Below, in pieces: positions 647 through 19,813 of a stretch of 21,999 bases of DNA. The position numbers and the translations under genes were made by a program. This DNA comes from a virus: the IMG/VR virus record IMGVR_UViG_3300046009_013444, positions 1-21,999 of that record; one strand, 5' to 3'. A model generated the notes under the pieces. The model worked only from the letters and a program-made list of their open reading frames with translations. It was not told where the DNA came from and did not search any database. Every line of letters starts with the position of its first letter. Position 1 is the first letter of the stretch.

Positions 647-1584
647 AAATTTGCCAAATAAACCCAGGTTGTGGAATACCTGTACCTCCTCCAGGTTGGG
701 GAGCGATTGAAAAAATCGTATGGGAATTTACTTGTAATCTAAAAGAGCTAGGACATGAGGTAGATATTCGTTGGGCAAACGAAATTCAACCAGGTGAATA
801 TGATATTGTAATGGTACACGTTGCTAATCTAGCTATTCAATTAGCTGATAGAGGTATTCCATATATTTTTCAACACCATGATCATCATGCCTACGTGTAT
901 GGTAAGGATTCATATGTTTATCAAGAAAATTTACAAGCAATGGAACGTTCTTTACTTTCAATAGTTCCAGCTCGTTATTTAGTAGATTATTTTAATACTA
1001 ATAAAGTAGAATATTTTTCACATGGTGTAAATGTTAAAGAATTTTATCCTACTACACCTCCTCTTCATCATAAATTATTAATGGTTGCCAATAATGGGTT
1101 AGCTGGTAATTCTAGCCACGATAGGAAGGGATTTGAATTAGGAATTAAATTAGCTATGACATTTAATCTTCCTATTACAATAGCTGGTCCTACTAATAAC
1201 TCGAATTTTTTCAGTAATAATCCTTGGGTATATGGTTATCCTAATCTTAATATAGTATACGATGTATCACCACAAGATTTAATTAAATTATATCAGGAAC
1301 ATACAATTTTTATTCATCCAAGTGAAGTAGAAGCAGGTCATCCTAATTTAACTTTAGTTGAAGCGGCTGCTTGTGGTTTACCTACTGTGGGGTGGATTGA
1401 AATGGAAACTGATTTTAATGGGATGTGGAGAGCACCTCGTGATTTATCCCAACTAGTAGATGGGTTAAAATATGTAATTAATAATTACAATAAATGTCGA
1501 ACTGATATTTTACAAACCGCTAATAATTTATCGTGGTATAATAGAAGTATAGATTTAGTTAAACTATTTGAACGTTTCGTATGA
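643..1584 (+). CDS. GT-B fold glycosyltransferase (GT4/group 1 type)
   Basis: A 313-residue protein, predicted to transfer a sugar from a nucleotide-sugar donor. The N-terminal Rossmann half opens with MKICQINPGCGIPVPPPGWG, where the GWGAIEK stretch corresponds to the usual Gly-rich acceptor-side loop. Around residue 78 lies a His-rich QHHDHHAYVYG loop. The C-terminal donor half carries VANN..RKGFELGI (148-168) and the family signature HPSEVEAGHPNLTLVEAAACGLPTVG in shortened reading around 225-250, with the two acidic residues of the E..E motif spaced slightly wider than normal. It overlaps both neighbours by ATGA, so the three GT-like genes are probably co-translated. It has no signal peptide or membrane segment and is probably cytoplasmic. 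The substrate could be a virion protein, a host surface glycan or DNA; nothing here decides. Confidence 0.85.
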   Translation: MKICQINPGCGIPVPPPGWGAIEKIVWEFTCNLKELGHEVDIRWANEIQPGEYDIVMVHVANLAIQLADRGIPYIFQHHDHHAYVYGKDSYVYQENLQAMERSLLSIVPARYLVDYFNTNKVEYFSHGVNVKEFYPTTPPLHHKLLMVANNGLAGNSSHDRKGFELGIKLAMTFNLPITIAGPTNNSNFFSNNPWVYGYPNLNIVYDVSPQDLIKLYQEHTIFIHPSEVEAGHPNLTLVEAAACGLPTVGWIEMETDFNGMWRAPRDLSQLVDGLKYVINNYNKCRTDILQTANNLSWYNRSIDLVKLFERFV

Positions 1585-2780
1585 AAGAAACTTTAATTCA
1601 AGAATATAATAATACTCAATTTTTAAAAATTCCTAGTATTACTCCTAAAAATACTATAATTTATAATTTTGTAGATGGGGCTACTTGTGAAATTAATGGT
1701 CCTGTTTCTAAAAATTATAATGTTAAATTTTTTAATGGAACTACTAGTGAATTAGTACACGAAACTGTTATTGCTAATAATATGTGGACTCGTACTACAG
1801 CAAAATATTTTGTAAAGTGGAGAATTGAGGTATATGATGATGATACTAAAGAATTAGTAGAAATTTATAATTACAATGCTAAAGGGAAAAGAGTATATAT
1901 CCATCTTGACTCAACAGCTTTAGGTGATTCTTTAGCATGGTTTCCTTATGCTGAAGAATTTAGAAAACACCATAATTGCGAAGTTATAGTTTCTACTTTT
2001 CACAACGAATGGTTCAAAGACAACTACCCAGAACTAGAATTTGTAGAACCAGGTACTGTAGTAGAAAATTTATATGCTATGTATGGTGTAGGATGGCATT
2101 ATATTGACAAAGAATTAGATAAAAGTAAACATCCTAAAGAAGTAAAGACTATGCCGATGCAGCAAACTTCTACTTCTATTTTAGGATTACCTTACAAAGA
2201 AGTAAAACCAAAACTTACTTTTCCTATAACCCAACCTGCTATCCCAGGCGATTATGTTGTAATTGCCCCTCATGCCTCGGCTCATGCTAAATACTGGAAT
2301 AATCGTACAGGGTGGCAAGAAGTAATTGATTATTTAAACAGTAAAGGGTATAAAGTATTAATGGTTACAAAAGAACCATTAGGTGATGAATGGCATGATT
2401 CTAAACTATATGGTACTTTAGAAGGAGTAATTGATAAAACCGGAGAATATCCTTTAGAAGATAGGTACAATGATATACACCATGCTAAAGCCTATATTGG
2501 TTTAGGTAGTGGTTTAAGTTGGTTAGCTTGGACTACCCCTACTCCAATAGTATTAATCTCAGGATTTTCTAAACCTTATACTGAATTTCAAGATTGCGAA
2601 AGAATCTTTGATTATACCCCAAGTCTATGTACAGGATGTTTTAATAAACATTGGTTAGATCCAGGTGATTGGGAGTGGTGCCCTGAACATAAAAATACTA
2701 CTCGTCAGTTTGAATGTACAAAAAATATTACTTCTCAAAAAGTAATTGATGCTTTAAACAAAATACTTAATATTTATTAA
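1581..2780 (+). CDS. Aah/TibC-type autotransporter O-heptosyltransferase homologue
   Basis: A 399-residue protein matching the bacterial autotransporter heptosyltransferase (Aah/TibC) family, which moves heptose from ADP-heptose onto Ser/Thr of beta-helical adhesins. Residues 20-100 form the beta-rich N-terminal domain (YNFVDGATCEING...MW...KYFVKWRIEVY). A GT-B catalytic part follows, with HLDSTALGDSLAWFPY (108-123) containing an acidic residue in the position expected of the family's catalytic Asp. The donor half runs IAPHASAHAKYWN (228-240) to GLGSGLSWLAW (307-317). Near the C-terminus Cys350, Cys353, Cys367 and Cys379 (C-x2-C-x13-C-x11-C) reproduce the family's iron finger. The gene is coupled by ATGA to the upstream GT. 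Likely targets are repetitive phage fibre or adhesion proteins, but this is inference. Whether the donor is ADP-heptose is also unproven. Confidence 0.88.
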   Translation: MKETLIQEYNNTQFLKIPSITPKNTIIYNFVDGATCEINGPVSKNYNVKFFNGTTSELVHETVIANNMWTRTTAKYFVKWRIEVYDDDTKELVEIYNYNAKGKRVYIHLDSTALGDSLAWFPYAEEFRKHHNCEVIVSTFHNEWFKDNYPELEFVEPGTVVENLYAMYGVGWHYIDKELDKSKHPKEVKTMPMQQTSTSILGLPYKEVKPKLTFPITQPAIPGDYVVIAPHASAHAKYWNNRTGWQEVIDYLNSKGYKVLMVTKEPLGDEWHDSKLYGTLEGVIDKTGEYPLEDRYNDIHHAKAYIGLGSGLSWLAWTTPTPIVLISGFSKPYTEFQDCERIFDYTPSLCTGCFNKHWLDPGDWEWCPEHKNTTRQFECTKNITSQKVIDALNKILNIY

Positions 2781-2781
2781 C

Positions 2782-3030
2782 ATGGAAACAAAAGTTTTAA
2801 CTCAAGAAGAGCTTACTCAATTAACAAATCTTCAAAATCAACAAAATGATCTTATACTAAATTTAGGATCAATTGAATACAGAATGTCTTTGTTAGCACA
2901 AAATAAAGAAATACTTAAAGCTCAAGTATTAGAATTAGAAAAATTAAACAATGAATTAGGTCAACAATTGACTGAAAAATACGGATCTGGTAACATTAAC
3001 CTAGAAACAGGTGAAATTATTATAGAGTAA
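2782..3030 (+). CDS. Small coiled-coil protein of unknown function
   Basis: An 82-residue protein starting one base after the stop of the heptosyltransferase, so it probably belongs to the same transcript. Residues 8-66 are Gln/Glu/Leu/Asn-rich with heptad-like spacing (LTNLQNQQNDLI, ILKAQVLELEKLNNELGQQL), which indicates a helical coiled coil. The tail YGSGNINLETGEIIIE looks like a short beta hairpin. It has no Cys, signal peptide or membrane segment. Its position just upstream of the sheath gene may point to a virion or assembly role, but I do not recognise the family. Confidence 0.75.
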   Translation: METKVLTQEELTQLTNLQNQQNDLILNLGSIEYRMSLLAQNKEILKAQVLELEKLNNELGQQLTEKYGSGNINLETGEIIIE

Positions 3031-3090
3031 AAACCCCGTTTCATTTAGTTATATTTAATGGTTTTATAAAGACTTTTGAAAAAAAAGCAC

Positions 3091-3104
3091 ATATTTATAA
3101 TAAA
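3091..3104 (+). promoter_or_regulatory. Putative late promoter of the tail sheath gene
   Basis: ATATTTATAATAAA lies 33 bases upstream of the sheath ATG. It is one of seven copies of the ATATTTATAA core in this window, each just upstream of a gene. The core contains a TATAAT-like -10 and is similar in composition to the T4 late element TATAAATA, which appears here on the opposite strand. Confidence 0.65.
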
Positions 3105-3123
3105 ACTAAAAATATAACTTGCA

Positions 3124-5118
3124 ATGGCAGAAACTTTAATTTCACCTGGGGTATTAGCTAGAGAAAACGATAATTCATTCGTTTCTCAGCAACCAGTAAC
3201 TGTAGGCGCCGCTATTATAGGTCCAACTGTAAAAGGCCCTGTAGAAATCCCTACTGTAGTTACTACATATTCTGATTATGTAAACAAATTTGGTACTACT
3301 TTCTTAAGTGGTGGTCAGGAATACAGCTACTTAACTTCAATTGCTGCTTACAACTACTTCCAACAAGGAGGTCAAAGTTTGTTAGTAGCTAGAGTAGCTT
3401 CTGGTTCATTTACTTCTGCAACCGATACTGGAATTTATTCTTCTGATGAAACTGGTGTATTAGCTACTGGTTCTTTCTCAAGCTCAATTACTACTAACGT
3501 TTCAGCTTCTGCAGGTACTTACAATAACGTAGCTACTATTACTAGTGGTACAGGTGTTGGAGCTACATTTAACGTAGTAGTAGCCAACCCAAGTGGTAGT
3601 GTAGTATCAAGCATTATAGTTTCAGGTTCAGGTACTGGTTACAATATTGGTGATACAATTACTATTGCTTCTTCTTCTTTAGGAGCTTCTACTTCTTTAG
3701 GTACTAACTTAGTACTTACTTTAACAGCCGCTAATATAGTAAGTGAAATAGCCTTTACATTAAAAACTATTTCTGAGGGTACTATTATGAATAGCTTTAG
3801 TACTCAAGGTGCTAATGGCACTCTACCAAGCGGTTCAGCTGATAACGTAAGATGGCAGATTTTAAATTCTAACACATCTTCAGGAACTTTTGATCTTTTA
3901 ATTAGACAAGGTAACGATACTGCTACTGAGCCTATCGTATTAGAAACTTGGACTAACTTATCACTTGACCCAACCCAACCAAACTTTATCTCTAGAGTAA
4001 TTGGTGACAGCTATCAAACATACAATGCTCCAGACAACTATGTAGAGGTATTAGGTAATTTCCCTACTAATTCTAGATACGTGTACGTAAGTGCTGTAAA
4101 TAACCCAACTCCATACTATTTTAATAATAATGGAAGCCCACAACCACAGTATACTTCTTCACTTCCTATTAATGCTAGTGGTTCATTTGATGGAGCAATC
4201 GGTAATATTTTAACAGGTACAGGTAAATATTATAATAATATTTCTAACACAGATACTCAAGGTTTAATAGGTGCCAACTATAATAATATGATATCTTTAA
4301 TGGCTAACCAAGACGATTACAGATTTAATGTAATTTCAGTCCCTGGTTTAACTATTGCCGATAATGCTTCTCAAACTACTAATTTAGTAAATAACATTCA
4401 ATCTAGAGGTGATGCTATTGCAGTAGTAGATACTAGAGAATTTGGAGCTTCAATCTCAGAAGCCACTACTTCAGCACTTACAATTAATAGCTCATATGCC
4501 GCAACATATTGGCCATGGTTACAAACCATTGATCCAGGTACTGGTCAATTAGTATGGGTACCAGCTTCAACATTAATTCCGGCTGTATACGCGTTTAATG
4601 ACAGTGTATCTGAACCATGGTTTGCACCTGCCGGAATCAATCGCGGTGGATTAGACACTGTAGTAAGAGCCGAAAGAAAACTAAGCCAAACTAACCGTAA
4701 CGATCTTTACACAGGTAATGTAAACCCAATTGCAACATTCCCAGGTACTGGAGTTGTAGTATACGGTCAGAAAACATTGCAGAAAAAATCATCTGCACTT
4801 GATCGTGTAAACGTTAGAAGATTGTTAATCGCCCTTAAGTCGTACATTTCTCAAGTAGCTAATAACTTAGTGTTTGAACAAAACACAATTGCTACAAGAA
4901 ACCAATTCTTAAGCCAAGTTAATCCTTATCTTGAATCAGTTCAACAACGTCAAGGTTTGTATGCGTTTAGAGTAATTATGGATGATTCCAATAACACTCC
5001 AGACGTAATCGATAGAAACCAATTAATTGGTCAAATCTATCTACAACCAACTAAGACTGCTGAATTTATTTACCTAGACTTCAACATCTTACCAACTGGA
5101 GCTACTTTCCCAGCATAA
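3124..5118 (+). CDS. 18: Contractile tail sheath protein, gp18-like
   Basis: A 664-residue protein, close in length to T4 gp18 (about 660). It polymerises around the tail tube and contracts during infection. The N-terminus is typical of sheath proteins: MAETLISPGVLARENDNS, then a VGAAIIGPTVKGPVEIPTVV strand region, a FGTTF loop and an AAYNYFQQGGQSLLVARV segment. The conserved C-terminal part (from about residue 480) contains PWLQTIDP, PAGINRGG and VYGQKTLQKK, and ends in the DVIDRNQLIGQIYLQPTKTAEFIYLDFNI region that forms inter-subunit contacts. Residues about 105-205 are Ser/Thr/Gly-rich and contain a GTGYNIGDTITI motif, which suggests an inserted, outward-facing beta domain. A late-promoter-like site precedes it and the tube gene follows after 46 bases. 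Confidence 0.95.
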   Translation: MAETLISPGVLARENDNSFVSQQPVTVGAAIIGPTVKGPVEIPTVVTTYSDYVNKFGTTFLSGGQEYSYLTSIAAYNYFQQGGQSLLVARVASGSFTSATDTGIYSSDETGVLATGSFSSSITTNVSASAGTYNNVATITSGTGVGATFNVVVANPSGSVVSSIIVSGSGTGYNIGDTITIASSSLGASTSLGTNLVLTLTAANIVSEIAFTLKTISEGTIMNSFSTQGANGTLPSGSADNVRWQILNSNTSSGTFDLLIRQGNDTATEPIVLETWTNLSLDPTQPNFISRVIGDSYQTYNAPDNYVEVLGNFPTNSRYVYVSAVNNPTPYYFNNNGSPQPQYTSSLPINASGSFDGAIGNILTGTGKYYNNISNTDTQGLIGANYNNMISLMANQDDYRFNVISVPGLTIADNASQTTNLVNNIQSRGDAIAVVDTREFGASISEATTSALTINSSYAATYWPWLQTIDPGTGQLVWVPASTLIPAVYAFNDSVSEPWFAPAGINRGGLDTVVRAERKLSQTNRNDLYTGNVNPIATFPGTGVVVYGQKTLQKKSSALDRVNVRRLLIALKSYISQVANNLVFEQNTIATRNQFLSQVNPYLESVQQRQGLYAFRVIMDDSNNTPDVIDRNQLIGQIYLQPTKTAEFIYLDFNILPTGATFPA

Positions 5119-16210: not shown

Positions 16211-17479
16211 GTGTTTTGGTTAATAGAAAATAAGAGTCAATTAGACGAGTTTTGCTACAAGGGTTTTAAAGAAGCATTTGTGGAGATAATTCCATATTCT
16301 CCCTTCATCCACTCCTCTCAAAACTCGATCTGTGCTATTTACGTTCGTCCTGTACGAGATGTAAAAGGGTACATTTTACCTATTTTCCACACCGAGGTAG
16401 AAGAAAATCTATTTGAGGATCAAGTTTACCGTTTACTTAAAGGGTTAGATAAAATTTACTGTCGAGATAAAAAGGAATTTTTACATTACTTTCCTTTCAA
16501 GCAGCTTGTTGACATTACCCTCACCTCCCCTACGTATATACAACCAACTCAAGCACACGAATTTATCTACAAGATATACTCTAGTAGAAAAGACGTAAAC
16601 ATACTTGTACCTATTGTTAAACACTATGAGTATTGTGAATCTATCTTTGAGGAGCTAGAACACTTAATTGGGCAACCTGTTAACGAGTTTTACAACCACA
16701 AAGCAAGTTGGATGTTCTATGCCATTGAGCAAGCGGGATTAACCGTTGATATACCGTTGTATGAGCAGTACTTTGAGCAAAGCACGGAGGGCGTGGTTTA
16801 TACTCAATATAACTTTAAAACGCTCACAACACGCCCATCAAACACATTTAATGGAATTAATTATGCAGCACTTAATAAAGAAAACGGTTGCAGGAAAGCT
16901 TTTATTGCGCGTAACTCTTCGCTTGTTGAGTTTGACATTAGCGCTTACCATCCTACTTTGTTGGCTAAGTTGGTTGACTATGATTTTAGTGATGAGGATA
17001 TTTATAGTCACTTTGCAGAAGTTTACGGGATGGATCGTAAAGATGCAAAAATCTTAACTCTTCAACAACTATACGGGGGTATTTTACCGCAATACGAGAA
17101 TCTTGAATTCTTTAAAAAGGTTAAAGTATATGTAAAGGCTTTATGGGATACTTTCCAATATGATGGTTATATCGAATGCCCTATTTCAGGACACCAGTAC
17201 TTTCGAGATAAGCTGGAAAACATGAATCCACAAAAACTTTTGAATTATTTGATTCAAAACTTGGAAACCGCATATAATGTTAATATATTGTGGGAAGTAT
17301 TCAAGATATTAAAAAATAAAAAAACTAAACTTGTATTATATACATTTGATTCGTTTTTGTTGGATTGGAGCGACGATGAGCGTGAGGTTTTAACAGACAT
17401 TCAAAATATATTCAAGAAATATAAACTAAATATAAAAGTTGCGCATGGAACCAGTTATGACTTTAGACCTACCGTATGA
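16211..17479 (+). CDS. Divergent family A DNA polymerase-like protein
   Basis: A 422-residue protein starting at GTG (a TAA lies just before it in frame). Pol I signatures appear in the right order: TLTTRPSNTFNGIN (204-217) resembles the RxSS..PNLQN stretch. Motif A is FDISAYHP with Asp242. Motif B is RKDAKILTLQQLYGG with Arg276, Lys280, Tyr288 and Gly289, and the R-x3-K-x7-YG spacing is canonical. Motif C is LYTFDSF with Asp380. Both catalytic carboxylates are therefore kept. Unusual changes are His247 where Pol I has the steric-gate Glu and Phe-Asp-Ser in place of His-Asp-Glu. The palm is shorter than in Pol I (138 residues between the two Asp). Residues 100-190 look like a reduced exonuclease-like or linker region. 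It has no late-promoter motif upstream. Confidence 0.78.
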   Translation: MFWLIENKSQLDEFCYKGFKEAFVEIIPYSPFIHSSQNSICAIYVRPVRDVKGYILPIFHTEVEENLFEDQVYRLLKGLDKIYCRDKKEFLHYFPFKQLVDITLTSPTYIQPTQAHEFIYKIYSSRKDVNILVPIVKHYEYCESIFEELEHLIGQPVNEFYNHKASWMFYAIEQAGLTVDIPLYEQYFEQSTEGVVYTQYNFKTLTTRPSNTFNGINYAALNKENGCRKAFIARNSSLVEFDISAYHPTLLAKLVDYDFSDEDIYSHFAEVYGMDRKDAKILTLQQLYGGILPQYENLEFFKKVKVYVKALWDTFQYDGYIECPISGHQYFRDKLENMNPQKLLNYLIQNLETAYNVNILWEVFKILKNKKTKLVLYTFDSFLLDWSDDEREVLTDIQNIFKKYKLNIKVAHGTSYDFRPTV

Positions 17480-17903
17480 TATTTATGGGGTAGACAACCC
17501 CATAAACTTCACAGATTTGAATAATAAGTTATTTTGTACATTTACTACATTGGATGGTGTAGAAGAATTGGTACACTCGCTACAAAGAAGGTACACTATC
17601 ATGTACAATAAGATATTTGTATTGGAGGTTAAAGATAATAATGAGTACGTTTTGACATACAATATCGAGATGTCTAATTTGGCTCATATCCCAGAAAACA
17701 CGATTTTGGTTCATCGTAAAAAAGAATCAAACACTCTCTATACAATCAATGCTCTAAACGAGCTGATTAAAAAACTGAATGGCGGAGTTGTAGATACACG
17801 TTACCAGATTGACTGGCAGCACTACAAAAACACGATTTTGCTAACTCAACAAAACGAGTTAAAGCAATTAAAGACTAAAATTCACGAGATTATTGAACTG
17901 TAA
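17445..17903 (+). CDS. Unknown protein following the polymerase
   Basis: A 152-residue protein. I chose ATG 17445; ATG 17457 (MTLDLPYDIYGVDNP) is equally plausible, and a TTG at 17439 is less likely. It overlaps the polymerase gene's 3' end by 20-35 bases in another frame, suggesting co-translation. Visible features are a beta-rich first half (LFCTFTTLDGVEEL, YNKIFVLEVKDNNEYVLTYN) and an alpha-helical C-terminus (LYTINALNELIKKLNGG, IDWQHYKNTILL, ELKQLKTKIHEIIEL). There are no catalytic motifs that I recognise. The last 30 bases belong to a 36-base repeat whose second copy lies at 18439-18474. It could be a polymerase or transcription accessory protein, but that is only contextual. Confidence 0.72.
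   Translation: MEPVMTLDLPYDIYGVDNPINFTDLNNKLFCTFTTLDGVEELVHSLQRRYTIMYNKIFVLEVKDNNEYVLTYNIEMSNLAHIPENTILVHRKKESNTLYTINALNELIKKLNGGVVDTRYQIDWQHYKNTILLTQQNELKQLKTKIHEIIEL
17867..17902 (+). repeat. 36-base direct repeat, copy 1 (coding)
   Basis: It matches 18439-18474 in 35 of 36 positions (C at 17898 against T at 18470). This copy codes for the C-terminus of the preceding protein and runs directly into the late-promoter motif at 17903. Confidence 0.92.
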
Positions 17904-17916
17904 TATTTATAACAAA
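17903..17916 (+). promoter_or_regulatory. Putative late promoter of the 171-residue gene
   Basis: ATATTTATAACAAA, 25 bases upstream of the ATG at 17928 and overlapping the stop codon of the previous gene. Confidence 0.62.
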
Positions 17917-17927
17917 TATATAGCGTA

Positions 17928-18443
17928 ATGAGCAATTTCGATTTAAAAAAATATTTAGCTGAAGGCAGACTATTTGAAGAAATCCAAGAAATTGAATTGA
18001 ATACATCTTTTCTTCAATTTCAAGATGATTTTGAAAGAGGAGGAGATGAAGGATATACTGTATGGAAACCTGAATTTAAAAATGGTTTAAAAGCATCTCA
18101 ACAAAATTTTAAATCTTCTGGTAAACCCGCTATTCCTACTCAAAAAAATAGCTTTTCAATGATTGATACTATGAGTGATATGGGGGAAAATATACCATAT
18201 ATTAATGTTAAATTTAAAAAACCACTAAATGAGGTTTTTATAGATTTAGATGATTACGATCCCGAAGAATTTGGTGTAGAAGATTTTAATAAATTTGATG
18301 AAATAGTTGAGTCTAAACCTAACCCAACACTGCAAGATGTTTCTGAATTAATTGATTTAAATAATGAAGGTTTAAGTTTTTATGGAAGTTATGTTTTAGA
18401 CATAAAATCTAATGAAATAATTAGTATTACAAAACATGATTAA
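17928..18443 (+). CDS. MSNFD-leader protein 1, possible prohead-targeted internal protein
   Basis: A 171-residue acidic protein. Its first 13 residues, MSNFDLKKYLAEG, closely match the leader of the next gene (MSNFDYKKYLVEN), but the remainder is unrelated by eye. YLAEG fits the L-x-E cleavage rule of T4-type prohead protease gp21, so the leader could be a capsid targeting sequence that is removed inside the prohead. After the leader come a region with GYTVWKPEFKNGLKASQQNF and an Asp/Glu-rich second half (EVFIDLDDYDPEEFGVEDFN), ending in beta-rich SFYGSYVLDIKSNEIISITK. It has no membrane segment or enzymatic motif I recognise. It has a late-promoter-like site, and it sits between two copies of a 36-base repeat, suggesting recent duplication or insertion. 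Confidence 0.78.
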   Translation: MSNFDLKKYLAEGRLFEEIQEIELNTSFLQFQDDFERGGDEGYTVWKPEFKNGLKASQQNFKSSGKPAIPTQKNSFSMIDTMSDMGENIPYINVKFKKPLNEVFIDLDDYDPEEFGVEDFNKFDEIVESKPNPTLQDVSELIDLNNEGLSFYGSYVLDIKSNEIISITKHD

Positions 18444-18474
18444 AGACTAAAATTCACGAGATTATTGAATTGTA
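18439..18474 (+). repeat. 36-base direct repeat, copy 2 (non-coding)
   Basis: Second copy of 17867-17902 with one mismatch. Here it overlaps the stop codon of the 171-residue gene and is otherwise intergenic, so it looks like a fossil of the end of the 17445-17903 gene. Confidence 0.92.
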
Positions 18475-18486
18475 GTAAAAATTTAT

Positions 18487-18500
18487 ATATTTATAATAAA
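18487..18500 (+). promoter_or_regulatory. Putative late promoter of the 120-residue gene
   Basis: ATATTTATAATAAA, 27 bases upstream of the ATG at 18514 and 12 bases after the second 36-base repeat. Confidence 0.65.
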
Positions 18501-18513
18501 TAATTTAGACACA

Positions 18514-18876
18514 ATGAGCAACTTTGATTACAAAAAATACTTAGTAGAGAATAAACTTACTTCTAATTCTCGTTTAAACGAAGAAGAAGGTACAGATATT
18601 TTATCTTTTCTTAAATCAAACAAACAGGAACTTTTAAGTAAATTAACTGAAAAATTCAAATATGATGAAGATGATATGGAAATGATGAGCGGATACGAAA
18701 TAGGACCAGGTGCTGATGCTGATGGAAACGAGGATGCAGAAATAGCAGGTTTAGGTGAAGCTGGATTAGATTTTTCGTTTAATCCAAAGAAAGTAAAAGA
18801 TACATATGGTGATGCTTTTAATTTTAAATTAGTTATAGCAGGTAAACCTATTTATGGTATTTCATATAATATGTAA
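18514..18876 (+). CDS. MSNFD-leader protein 2, possible prohead-targeted internal protein
   Basis: A 120-residue, strongly acidic protein. The leader MSNFDYKKYLVENKL parallels that of the preceding gene, and LVE followed by N is again close to the L-x-E prohead-protease consensus. After it come a helical Lys/Leu-rich stretch (TDILSFLKSNKQELLSKLTEKF) in shortened form, a Met/Gly/Asp-rich section with GPGADADGNEDAEIAGLGEAG, and a short beta-rich end, NFKLVIAGKPIYGISYNM. No catalytic motif is seen. The shared leader with an otherwise different body suggests a delivery tag attached to varied cargo. The last gene before a hairpin and the replication block. Confidence 0.78.
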   Translation: MSNFDYKKYLVENKLTSNSRLNEEEGTDILSFLKSNKQELLSKLTEKFKYDEDDMEMMSGYEIGPGADADGNEDAEIAGLGEAGLDFSFNPKKVKDTYGDAFNFKLVIAGKPIYGISYNM

Positions 18877-18988: not shown

Positions 18989-19813
18989 ATGGATTTAGAA
19001 GCAATCAAATCGCGTTTAAACGCAATGCAAAAAACCACAAATGGTAAAGGTGGAGGTGACCGTACCTCACTATTCTGGAAGCCTACCGTAGGCAAACAGA
19101 CAGTACGTGTTGTACCCTCAAAGTACAACCCAATAATGCCCTTTAGCGAGATTTTCTTCCACTACGGAATCGATAAGCCCGTTATGGTATCTCCTATCAA
19201 CTGGGGTGACAAAGACCCAATCGTTGAGTTCGCAGCTCAATTGAAGAAAACCAACGACAAGGAAAACTGGAAGTTGTCTAAAAAAATCGAACCAAAAGCT
19301 CGTTACTTTGCCCCAGTAATTGTACGTGGTGAAGAAGACAAAGGTGTTCGTTTGTGGCAGTTCGGTAAAGAGATTTACGAGGCGTTCCTGCAAATGGCTG
19401 TTGACGAGGAAGTTGGTGATTACACTGACGTAATGGAAGGTCGCGACATCAAGTTGACCACTGTAGGCCCAGAAGCAACTGGTACCCCTTACAACAAAAC
19501 CACAATTAGCCCTTCAATGAAGAATAGCCCATTGGGTGACGCTGAACAAGTTCGTTTGTGGAAAGATAATCAACCAAACCCAAAAGAATTGTTCAAGCCA
19601 TTTACTTTTGATGAGATGAAGTTGGCCTTGCAGAACTGGTTGAACCCCGAAGCTACTGAGGGCGAGATCATAGATGATGAGAAAGAAGTAGAAGAAGCAC
19701 CTAAAACAAACTACTCAATCAATACCTCAAATGCAGCTGTAAAGCAAAGCAAGTTGGATAAGTTTGATAGTTTGTTTGATGAAGATAGCACCTCTGACGA
19801 TTTGCCCTTCTAA
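18989..19813 (+). CDS. 32: Single-stranded DNA-binding protein, gp32-like, without zinc finger
   Basis: A 274-residue protein (T4 gp32 is 301). It coats ssDNA during replication and recombination. The basic N-terminal part (MDLEAIKSRLNAMQ) corresponds to the cooperativity domain. The OB-like core runs SLFWKPTVGKQTVRVVPSKY, PFSEIFFHYGIDKPVMVSP and RLWQFGKEIYEAFLQMAVDE. There is no cysteine anywhere, so the zinc site of T4 gp32 is absent. The acidic C-terminal tail (about 225-274) ends DKFDSLFDEDSTSDDLPF, close to the DDDIPF tip of bacterial SSBs. The uvsX-like gene starts two bases after its stop. Leu codons are mostly TTG, unlike the TTA-rich late genes. No late-promoter motif precedes it. 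Confidence 0.92.
   Translation: MDLEAIKSRLNAMQKTTNGKGGGDRTSLFWKPTVGKQTVRVVPSKYNPIMPFSEIFFHYGIDKPVMVSPINWGDKDPIVEFAAQLKKTNDKENWKLSKKIEPKARYFAPVIVRGEEDKGVRLWQFGKEIYEAFLQMAVDEEVGDYTDVMEGRDIKLTTVGPEATGTPYNKTTISPSMKNSPLGDAEQVRLWKDNQPNPKELFKPFTFDEMKLALQNWLNPEATEGEIIDDEKEVEEAPKTNYSINTSNAAVKQSKLDKFDSLFDEDSTSDDLPF

Follow-up and report, generated by a model that had tools for sequence, protein, structure and literature searches.

Two proteins encoded in a linear piece of 22 kb from an uncultured T4-like myovirus (the window, meaning the whole stretch of 21,999 nt analysed here) share a 12-residue N-terminus, MSNFDxKKYLxE, which is probably a modular, protease-removed leader that works like the capsid-targeting sequence (CTS) of T4. 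A capsid-targeting tag had already been proposed in a sequence-only reading of the window, and the idea is supported by the modular use of N-terminal leaders, their aromatic-aliphatic-x-Glu end as in T4 IPII/IPIII, late promoter elements, an S77 protease encoded by close relatives, the placing of some leader genes within the head operon, and an alternative leader in which the C-terminal peptide of the scaffold recurs. The 39-bp direct repeat, the swapping of leaders and the scale of leader use go beyond that reading. Leader classes were designated A (MxNFDLKKYLAE), B (MKKSxLKQIIKEE), C (MIKLTDLLKE) and D (RMQKLAGIITE). Head targeting of the leader proteins is well supported by inference, and injection and anti-defence roles of the cargo are plausible by analogy with T4.

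Window and leader genes

The genes of the window start in the order tail sheath (3124), tube (5165), hub (6139), tape-measure-like gene (7176) and baseplate-like genes, with a polymerase fragment (16211), SSB (18989), a UvsX-like gene (19816) and then an exonuclease gene in the right part; ORF1 and ORF2 are positioned between the polymerase/x154 pair and SSB (Table 1). Both ORFs, with their shared start and unrelated bodies, were confirmed as first read, the bodies belonging to different families. The N-terminal stretch of ORF1 is MSNFDLKKYLAEGRLFEE, with a second L-x-E at residues 15-17 (LFE), and that of ORF2 is MSNFDYKKYLVENKLTSN, with a second L-x-E at residues 21-23 (LNE). A prohead-protease cut is predicted after Glu12 in leader A of ORF1.

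Table 1. Features in and around the cargo slot of the window
Feature	Position	Strand	Description or basis
Conserved ORF x154	17445..17903	+	Left border of cargo slot; immuto gp002 in the same place
Direct repeat, copy 1	17867..17905	+	3' end of upstream ORF and intergenic start
TATTTATA promoter-like element	17904..17911	+	24 nt before ORF1; common to structural genes
ORF1	17928..18443	+	171 aa, leader A and cargo body, ATG start; sequence
Leader A of ORF1, MSNFDLKKYLAE	17928..17963	+	Sequence; positions 9-12 conserved in 146 proteins
ORF1 body (cargo) from Ile22, stop included	17991..18443	+	73-87% identity to its relatives, several of which have another leader
Direct repeat, copy 2 (95%)	18439..18477	+	At ORF1 stop
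TATTTATA promoter-like element	18488..18495	+	26 nt before ORF2
ORF2	18514..18876	+	120 aa, leader A and a different acidic cargo body, ATG start; sequence
Leader A of ORF2, MSNFDYKKYLVE	18514..18549	+	Sequence
SSB (gp32-like)	18989..19813	+	Right border of cargo slot; without TATTTATA element

Neither ORF matched above noise in Pfam and PHROG profile searches, and ORF1 had no match in 50,697 phage records. AlphaFold models were dropped as input for fold searches (mean pLDDT 48.8 for ORF1 and 44.9 for ORF2), and profile matches to solved structures were weak and at chance level (P22 tailspike, E 0.06; sortase, E 0.016). Because neither the 28-residue leader nor ORF1 matched a cultured phage in tblastn, the closest cultured relative, Flavobacterium phage immuto (Immutovirus; TerL, 61%), was reached through TerL.

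Elsewhere in the window, two ORFs 5' of the tail sheath gene (643-2780) look glycosyltransferase-like by eye. The polymerase fragment (16211-17479) is a 422-aa piece whose PHROG 17 match covers the C-terminal part of the profile; its counterpart in immuto is gp001, and the presence there of a second family A polymerase gene far off (gp199) suggests that the polymerase was split or duplicated.

The late-promoter-like sites noticed before both ORFs are real, with TATTTATA lying 24 and 26 nt upstream of the respective ATG. Eight copies of this element were found on the + strand of the window, seven of them 12-34 nt before genes (sheath, tube, hub, tape-measure, ORF 9969, ORF1 and ORF2) and the eighth inside pol, and none was found there before pol, SSB, UvsX or exonuclease. 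Among upstream regions of leader genes, 38 of 135 carried TATTTATA versus 2.0 in shuffles; the T4 late consensus TATAAATA was not enriched before leader genes (8 versus 4.3 expected). The immuto genome carries a longer form, TATTTATAA, before portal, sheath, tube and tail genes, and also before gp077 (leader A) and gp230 (leader D). Late transcription of the cargo genes is supported because the promoter-like element is common to virion genes.

Distribution of leader A

A degenerate DNA pattern of the leader matched at least 120 IMG/VR contigs (scan 1), at which at least 152 ORF starts with the leader were counted, with a maximum of four on one 9.5-kb contig (L045). In a second scan of IMG/VR (at least 120 contigs), only ATG-x-NFDL-[KR]-K was fixed. 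When both scans were pooled (cargo proteins of at least 60 aa, body families by blastp at 1e-3), leader A was found on at least 179 cargo proteins representing at least 101 body families. The search for further MSNFDxKKYL-type starts, as suggested with the first reading, thus yielded a leader that heads far too many unrelated bodies in viral contigs to be shared by chance. Among the matches listed, 84% of the leader-A bodies are acidic, with a median net charge of -9.

The same DNA pattern hit three contigs in 84,980 bacterial and archaeal genomes, which, the viral and cellular collections being unequal in size, is to be read as a strong contrast and not as a rate. Two of these, on MAG contigs (L193 and L194), read like phage cargo; the third (L195), a Fur-like/Fur-type protein, was rejected as a genuine leader protein, being a chance match by eye.

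A regular expression for leader A matched 187 N-termini, 8 internal positions and none in reversed proteins (714,248 residues), counts that show position and not frequency, the contigs having been picked partly for carrying the leader. The leader is kept inside a longer ORF in six cases, which are single ORFs with leader A internal at a fusion point, mostly preceded by Met, in L167 (16342-17934; G018 36342-37934), L062, L104, L154, L220 and L225. These arrangements suggest fused cargo genes, possibly read as multi-cargo polyproteins or from internal starts.

Head genes, leader D and the fate of the cargo

The first reading had expected a gp21-like prohead protease elsewhere in the genome; this was borne out in relatives, and the 22-kb fragment itself encodes none. 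S77 prohead protease (PF03420) was detected above the cut-off in G001, the contig of the closest ORF1 relative (87% identical), and also in G005, G010 and G013. It is encoded in 12 of the 24 larger leader-A contigs, including all three of more than 160 kb; this co-occurrence was rejected as proof by itself, many contigs being fragments and 12/24 being little above the expectation from size. In L036 (G013, 1523-3256, - strand) the protease gene is split by a long in-frame insert (GELDHPE|CFIEGY... to ...SGN|S), which starts with Cys, is missing from G001 and G005, and looks like an intein.

Leader genes also occur within the head operon. A leader-A gene lies directly between protease and scaffold in G019, and in both G018 and immuto a variant leader gene (MENNFD-) occupies that place and leader-A genes directly precede TerL. 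Over four near-complete genomes, six of nine leader-A or variant genes lie within 2 kb of the TerL-to-MCP module (binomial P of about 3e-5), a count that is descriptive, made after looking and on related genomes, and that leaves out immuto gp003, which was found separately in the pol-SSB slot (6/10 with gp003). In several contigs the gene next to the tube gene belongs to a leader-A family with homology to the head protein whose gene immediately precedes that of the protease. In MCP, the sites that alignment places where T4 gp23 is processed read KQ[LI][VI]xE|x (KQIIKE|S in G019, for example), near to leader B.

The motif of leader D is terminal only: a regular expression for it (RMQKLAGI-like) matched 31 C-termini, 16 N-termini and no internal position in the same 714,248 residues. 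The C-terminal carriers are mostly gp22-like scaffold proteins encoded between protease and major capsid protein, together with a few non-scaffold proteins, and at the N-termini of cargo the motif is in most cases followed by I-T-E or similar. Because the motif is confined to termini and I-T-E comes after it, leader D looks like a copied terminal peptide of the scaffold with an attached cut site. No other single observation is as informative with regard to a prohead destination, at which the motif D peptide would serve for docking. Immuto gp230 (L230 25061-25456), which carries leader D (MKKQILSEQFKRMQFLAGIITES) and TATTTATAA and stands alone among early-type genes, is a candidate packaged protein.

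Alternatively, the leader proteins could be prohead core or scaffold parts that are targeted and cleaved and then stay or are degraded in the head, not being injected effectors. This explanation shares the targeting step with the one preferred here, and the two part over what becomes of the cargo. It draws on the acidic bodies, which resemble T4 gp67 in this respect, on the homology of one leader-A family to the head protein whose gene precedes the protease, and on the leader genes within the head operon; but the number of families (at least 101), the tandem arrays and the turnover of cassettes are what accessory cargo would show, most families are without a visible link to head genes, and we regard this explanation as somewhat unlikely. 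Under the preferred reading, that of a CTS-like leader, the cargo bodies are probably in part ejected effectors, and some are related to head-core proteins.

Leader A as peptide and as DNA

Conservation was scored in 146 distinct proteins from scan 2, which are related through their leaders, so that the following counts are not independent events; Phe4 was fixed by the scan pattern. At positions not selected in the scan, Tyr or Phe occupied position 9 and Leu, Ile or Val position 10 in 145 of 146 proteins each, position 11 was mostly Ala, Val or Thr, and position 12 was Glu in 138 and Asp in 3, with conservation dropping off past about residue 15. Most of the eight proteins without Glu12 have an L-x-E a few residues further on (YLYNNPLLKE and FVSARTLLKE, for example). 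The frequency of [YF]LxE in the bodies is 0.064% of positions.

Third codon positions at Asn3, Lys8, Tyr9 and Glu12 follow the usage of the bodies (leader/body: AAT, 0.73/0.72; TAT, 0.69/0.68; GAA, 0.85/0.87). Leu is biased to TTA in the leader and Phe codon use also differs, from which it appears that some DNA-level or copying effect remains. Taken together, the codons indicate that the leader is kept mainly as a peptide and disfavour a pure DNA handle.

Different leaders were found on the same bodies. The ORF1 body follows leader A in the window and in G001 and G002, follows leader B ([M/V]KKSxLKQII[KR]EE) in L005-L009 and L011-L014, and has almost no leader in L010, with identity restarting sharply at IELN across leader types. 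The ORF2 body stands behind leader A in L196, behind an A-variant (MKKADNFDASKWLVENK) in L197 and, as part of a longer protein, in L198, behind leader B in L199 (MTKLELRQIIREE), and behind leader D in L200 (MTKLINEAKRLQELAGINE), where the following gene bears the same leader. Two further families follow this pattern: leader A alternates with MKLSKLISEA in the CPLPTQNLELN family, and with MTRLEKIINEVLLEE or MDRLKKIVKEIISE in the RDRCLRIADRKFDKPSAYKSG family. Aliphatic-x-Glu is present in each of these swapped leaders.

The slot between x154 and SSB also varies in content: in L006 it holds ORF1 with leader B, in L197 a pair of variant-leader genes, and in immuto the unrelated leader-A protein gp003. 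In L196 the upstream ORF is joined straight to ORF2 with no ORF1, and the junction is collinear with copy 2 of the direct repeat. On the simplest reading, a cassette of roughly 572 bp with ORF1 was gained via recombination in short homology; alternatively, ORF1 may have been lost in L196.

Given that T4-type phages shuffle regulatory cassettes, the leader might be a recombination handle only, the promoter and the 5' gene end being copied with mobile cassettes and no targeting being involved. Such a handle would account for the 39-bp flanking repeat, for the repeated promoter element and leader DNA that surround ORF1, and for the relative without ORF1 (L196), but it is made improbable by the body-like synonymous positions at Asn3, Lys8, Tyr9 and Glu12, by chemically different leaders on the same body, by the retention of the leader at six internal fusion points, and by the match of motif D to the scaffold C-terminus. 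That the leader sends proteins elsewhere, such as to a host protease, the host membrane or parts of the tail (tube or baseplate), is likewise improbable, although a leader-A gene lies between tube and hub genes in some contigs and ORF1 and ORF2 come after tail genes, since the leader-A family of the tail operon has a head protein as its homologue and the [L/I]-x-E end, the head-operon neighbours and the scaffold-like leader D fit the prohead.

Proposed mechanism and meaning

For the CTS-like leader, docking, cleavage, packaging and ejection are steps that we infer, the first two from motif and context. Cargo genes would be transcribed late from the TATTTATA promoter-like element, as virion genes are, and the 12-residue leader would dock the cargo on the assembling prohead core, where the S77 prohead protease would cut after [L/I]-x-Glu, either at Glu12 or at the second site a few residues on. 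The freed body would stay in the DNA-filled head, and at least some cargo would be ejected along with the DNA. The leader is a module, and bodies pass as cassettes from phage to phage and from locus to locus behind whichever leader is attached. Points that count against the CTS reading are the ORF1 relative with almost no leader (L010), the acidic cargo, a spacing unlike that of T4, the missing protease gene on the fragment and the missing family link to T4 internal proteins; moreover, L-x-E carries little information in proteins rich in Glu.

More tentatively, immuto-like T4-type phages may possess an open "address label" system in which at least four interchangeable labels, one of them copying the scaffold C-terminal docking peptide, load at least 100 cassette-borne families into the head for delivery at infection; we hold this to be possible and somewhat short of probable. 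If the CTS-like reading is right, the leader is a DNA-readable handle for packaged, probably first-delivered genes of uncultured T4-like phages. It then provides, for phages other than the T-even group of E. coli, a list of candidate anti-defence or takeover proteins, and it offers the scaffold C-terminal peptide as a docking partner open to testing, as well as new tags with which to load proteins into phage heads.

Comparison with known systems

Immuto has in common with the window and its relatives the leader-A-type proteins gp003, gp076, gp077 and gp092 and the variant gp069, the pol-x154-cargo-SSB slot, an S77-type protease and, ahead of structural genes, the TATTTATAA element. Its slot holds other cargo, and its leader proteins bear the annotation hypothetical, except gp077, which is given as cobalamin adenosyltransferase. 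The latter annotation (cob(I)alamin adenosyltransferase PduO) looks doubtful for a gene beside TerL with the leader-A-type start MADNFNLRSFLTENK (L226 17631-18632). No publications on immuto virion proteins were found, nor was a description of the leader system in immuto-like phages, in a literature search that covered mainly open-access papers, and novelty is accordingly provisional.

In the giant phages SPN3US and phiKZ, ejection-protein propeptides likewise put an identical short N-terminus on head proteins that have diverged (for example MANFVKSKLARESVE on gp53 and gp54) and have Glu-ending protease sites (PMC5694885), but these propeptides mostly exceed 100 residues and SPN3US cuts at A-x-E. 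The N-terminal signal of P1 DarB is enough by itself to bring a reporter into the head (PMC9024508); the Dar proteins, in contrast, are without a found consensus and P1 is without a separate T4-like scaffold.

The gp21-removed CTS of T4, which leader A would match in its way of working, is also a short N-terminal leader on otherwise unrelated proteins of variable cargo loci, with an aromatic residue at position 4, another just before [L/I]-x-Glu, and an S77 protease, encoded in the case of leader A in relatives only. The T4 controls read here were MKTYQEFIAE (IPII/IPIII), MLKEQLIAE (gp22) and MAKINELLRE (gp24), and cutting in T4 after the Glu that ends each of these N-termini is established. 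A short N-terminus shared within one phage is found in ORF1/ORF2 and in the four leader-A-type proteins of immuto, as well as across the at least 101 families. Leader A has aromatics at 4 and 9, Leu10 and Glu12, that is, two extra residues between the aromatics (MxNFDLKKYLAE versus MKTYQEFIAE), whereas in the T4 CTS residues 4 and 7 target and residues 8 and 10 govern processing (PMC9026906). The leader-A cargo further differs in its roughly 100 families, its several interchangeable leader classes and its bodies without sequence homology to those of T4, and these bodies are mostly acidic, while T4 IPI-IPIII are basic and DNA-associated. With no PHROG or Pfam match above noise and ORF1 unmatched in the phage records searched, the leader-A proteins stand outside the T4 internal-protein family by sequence, charge and leader spacing. 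Each of T4 Ip1-3 inhibits a GmrSD restriction enzyme, and the leader is the sole part that they share (PMC12373910). Ip1-3 offer the best precedent for a possible role of the cargo, with the acidic bodies and the head-protein relative allowing a structural role for some.
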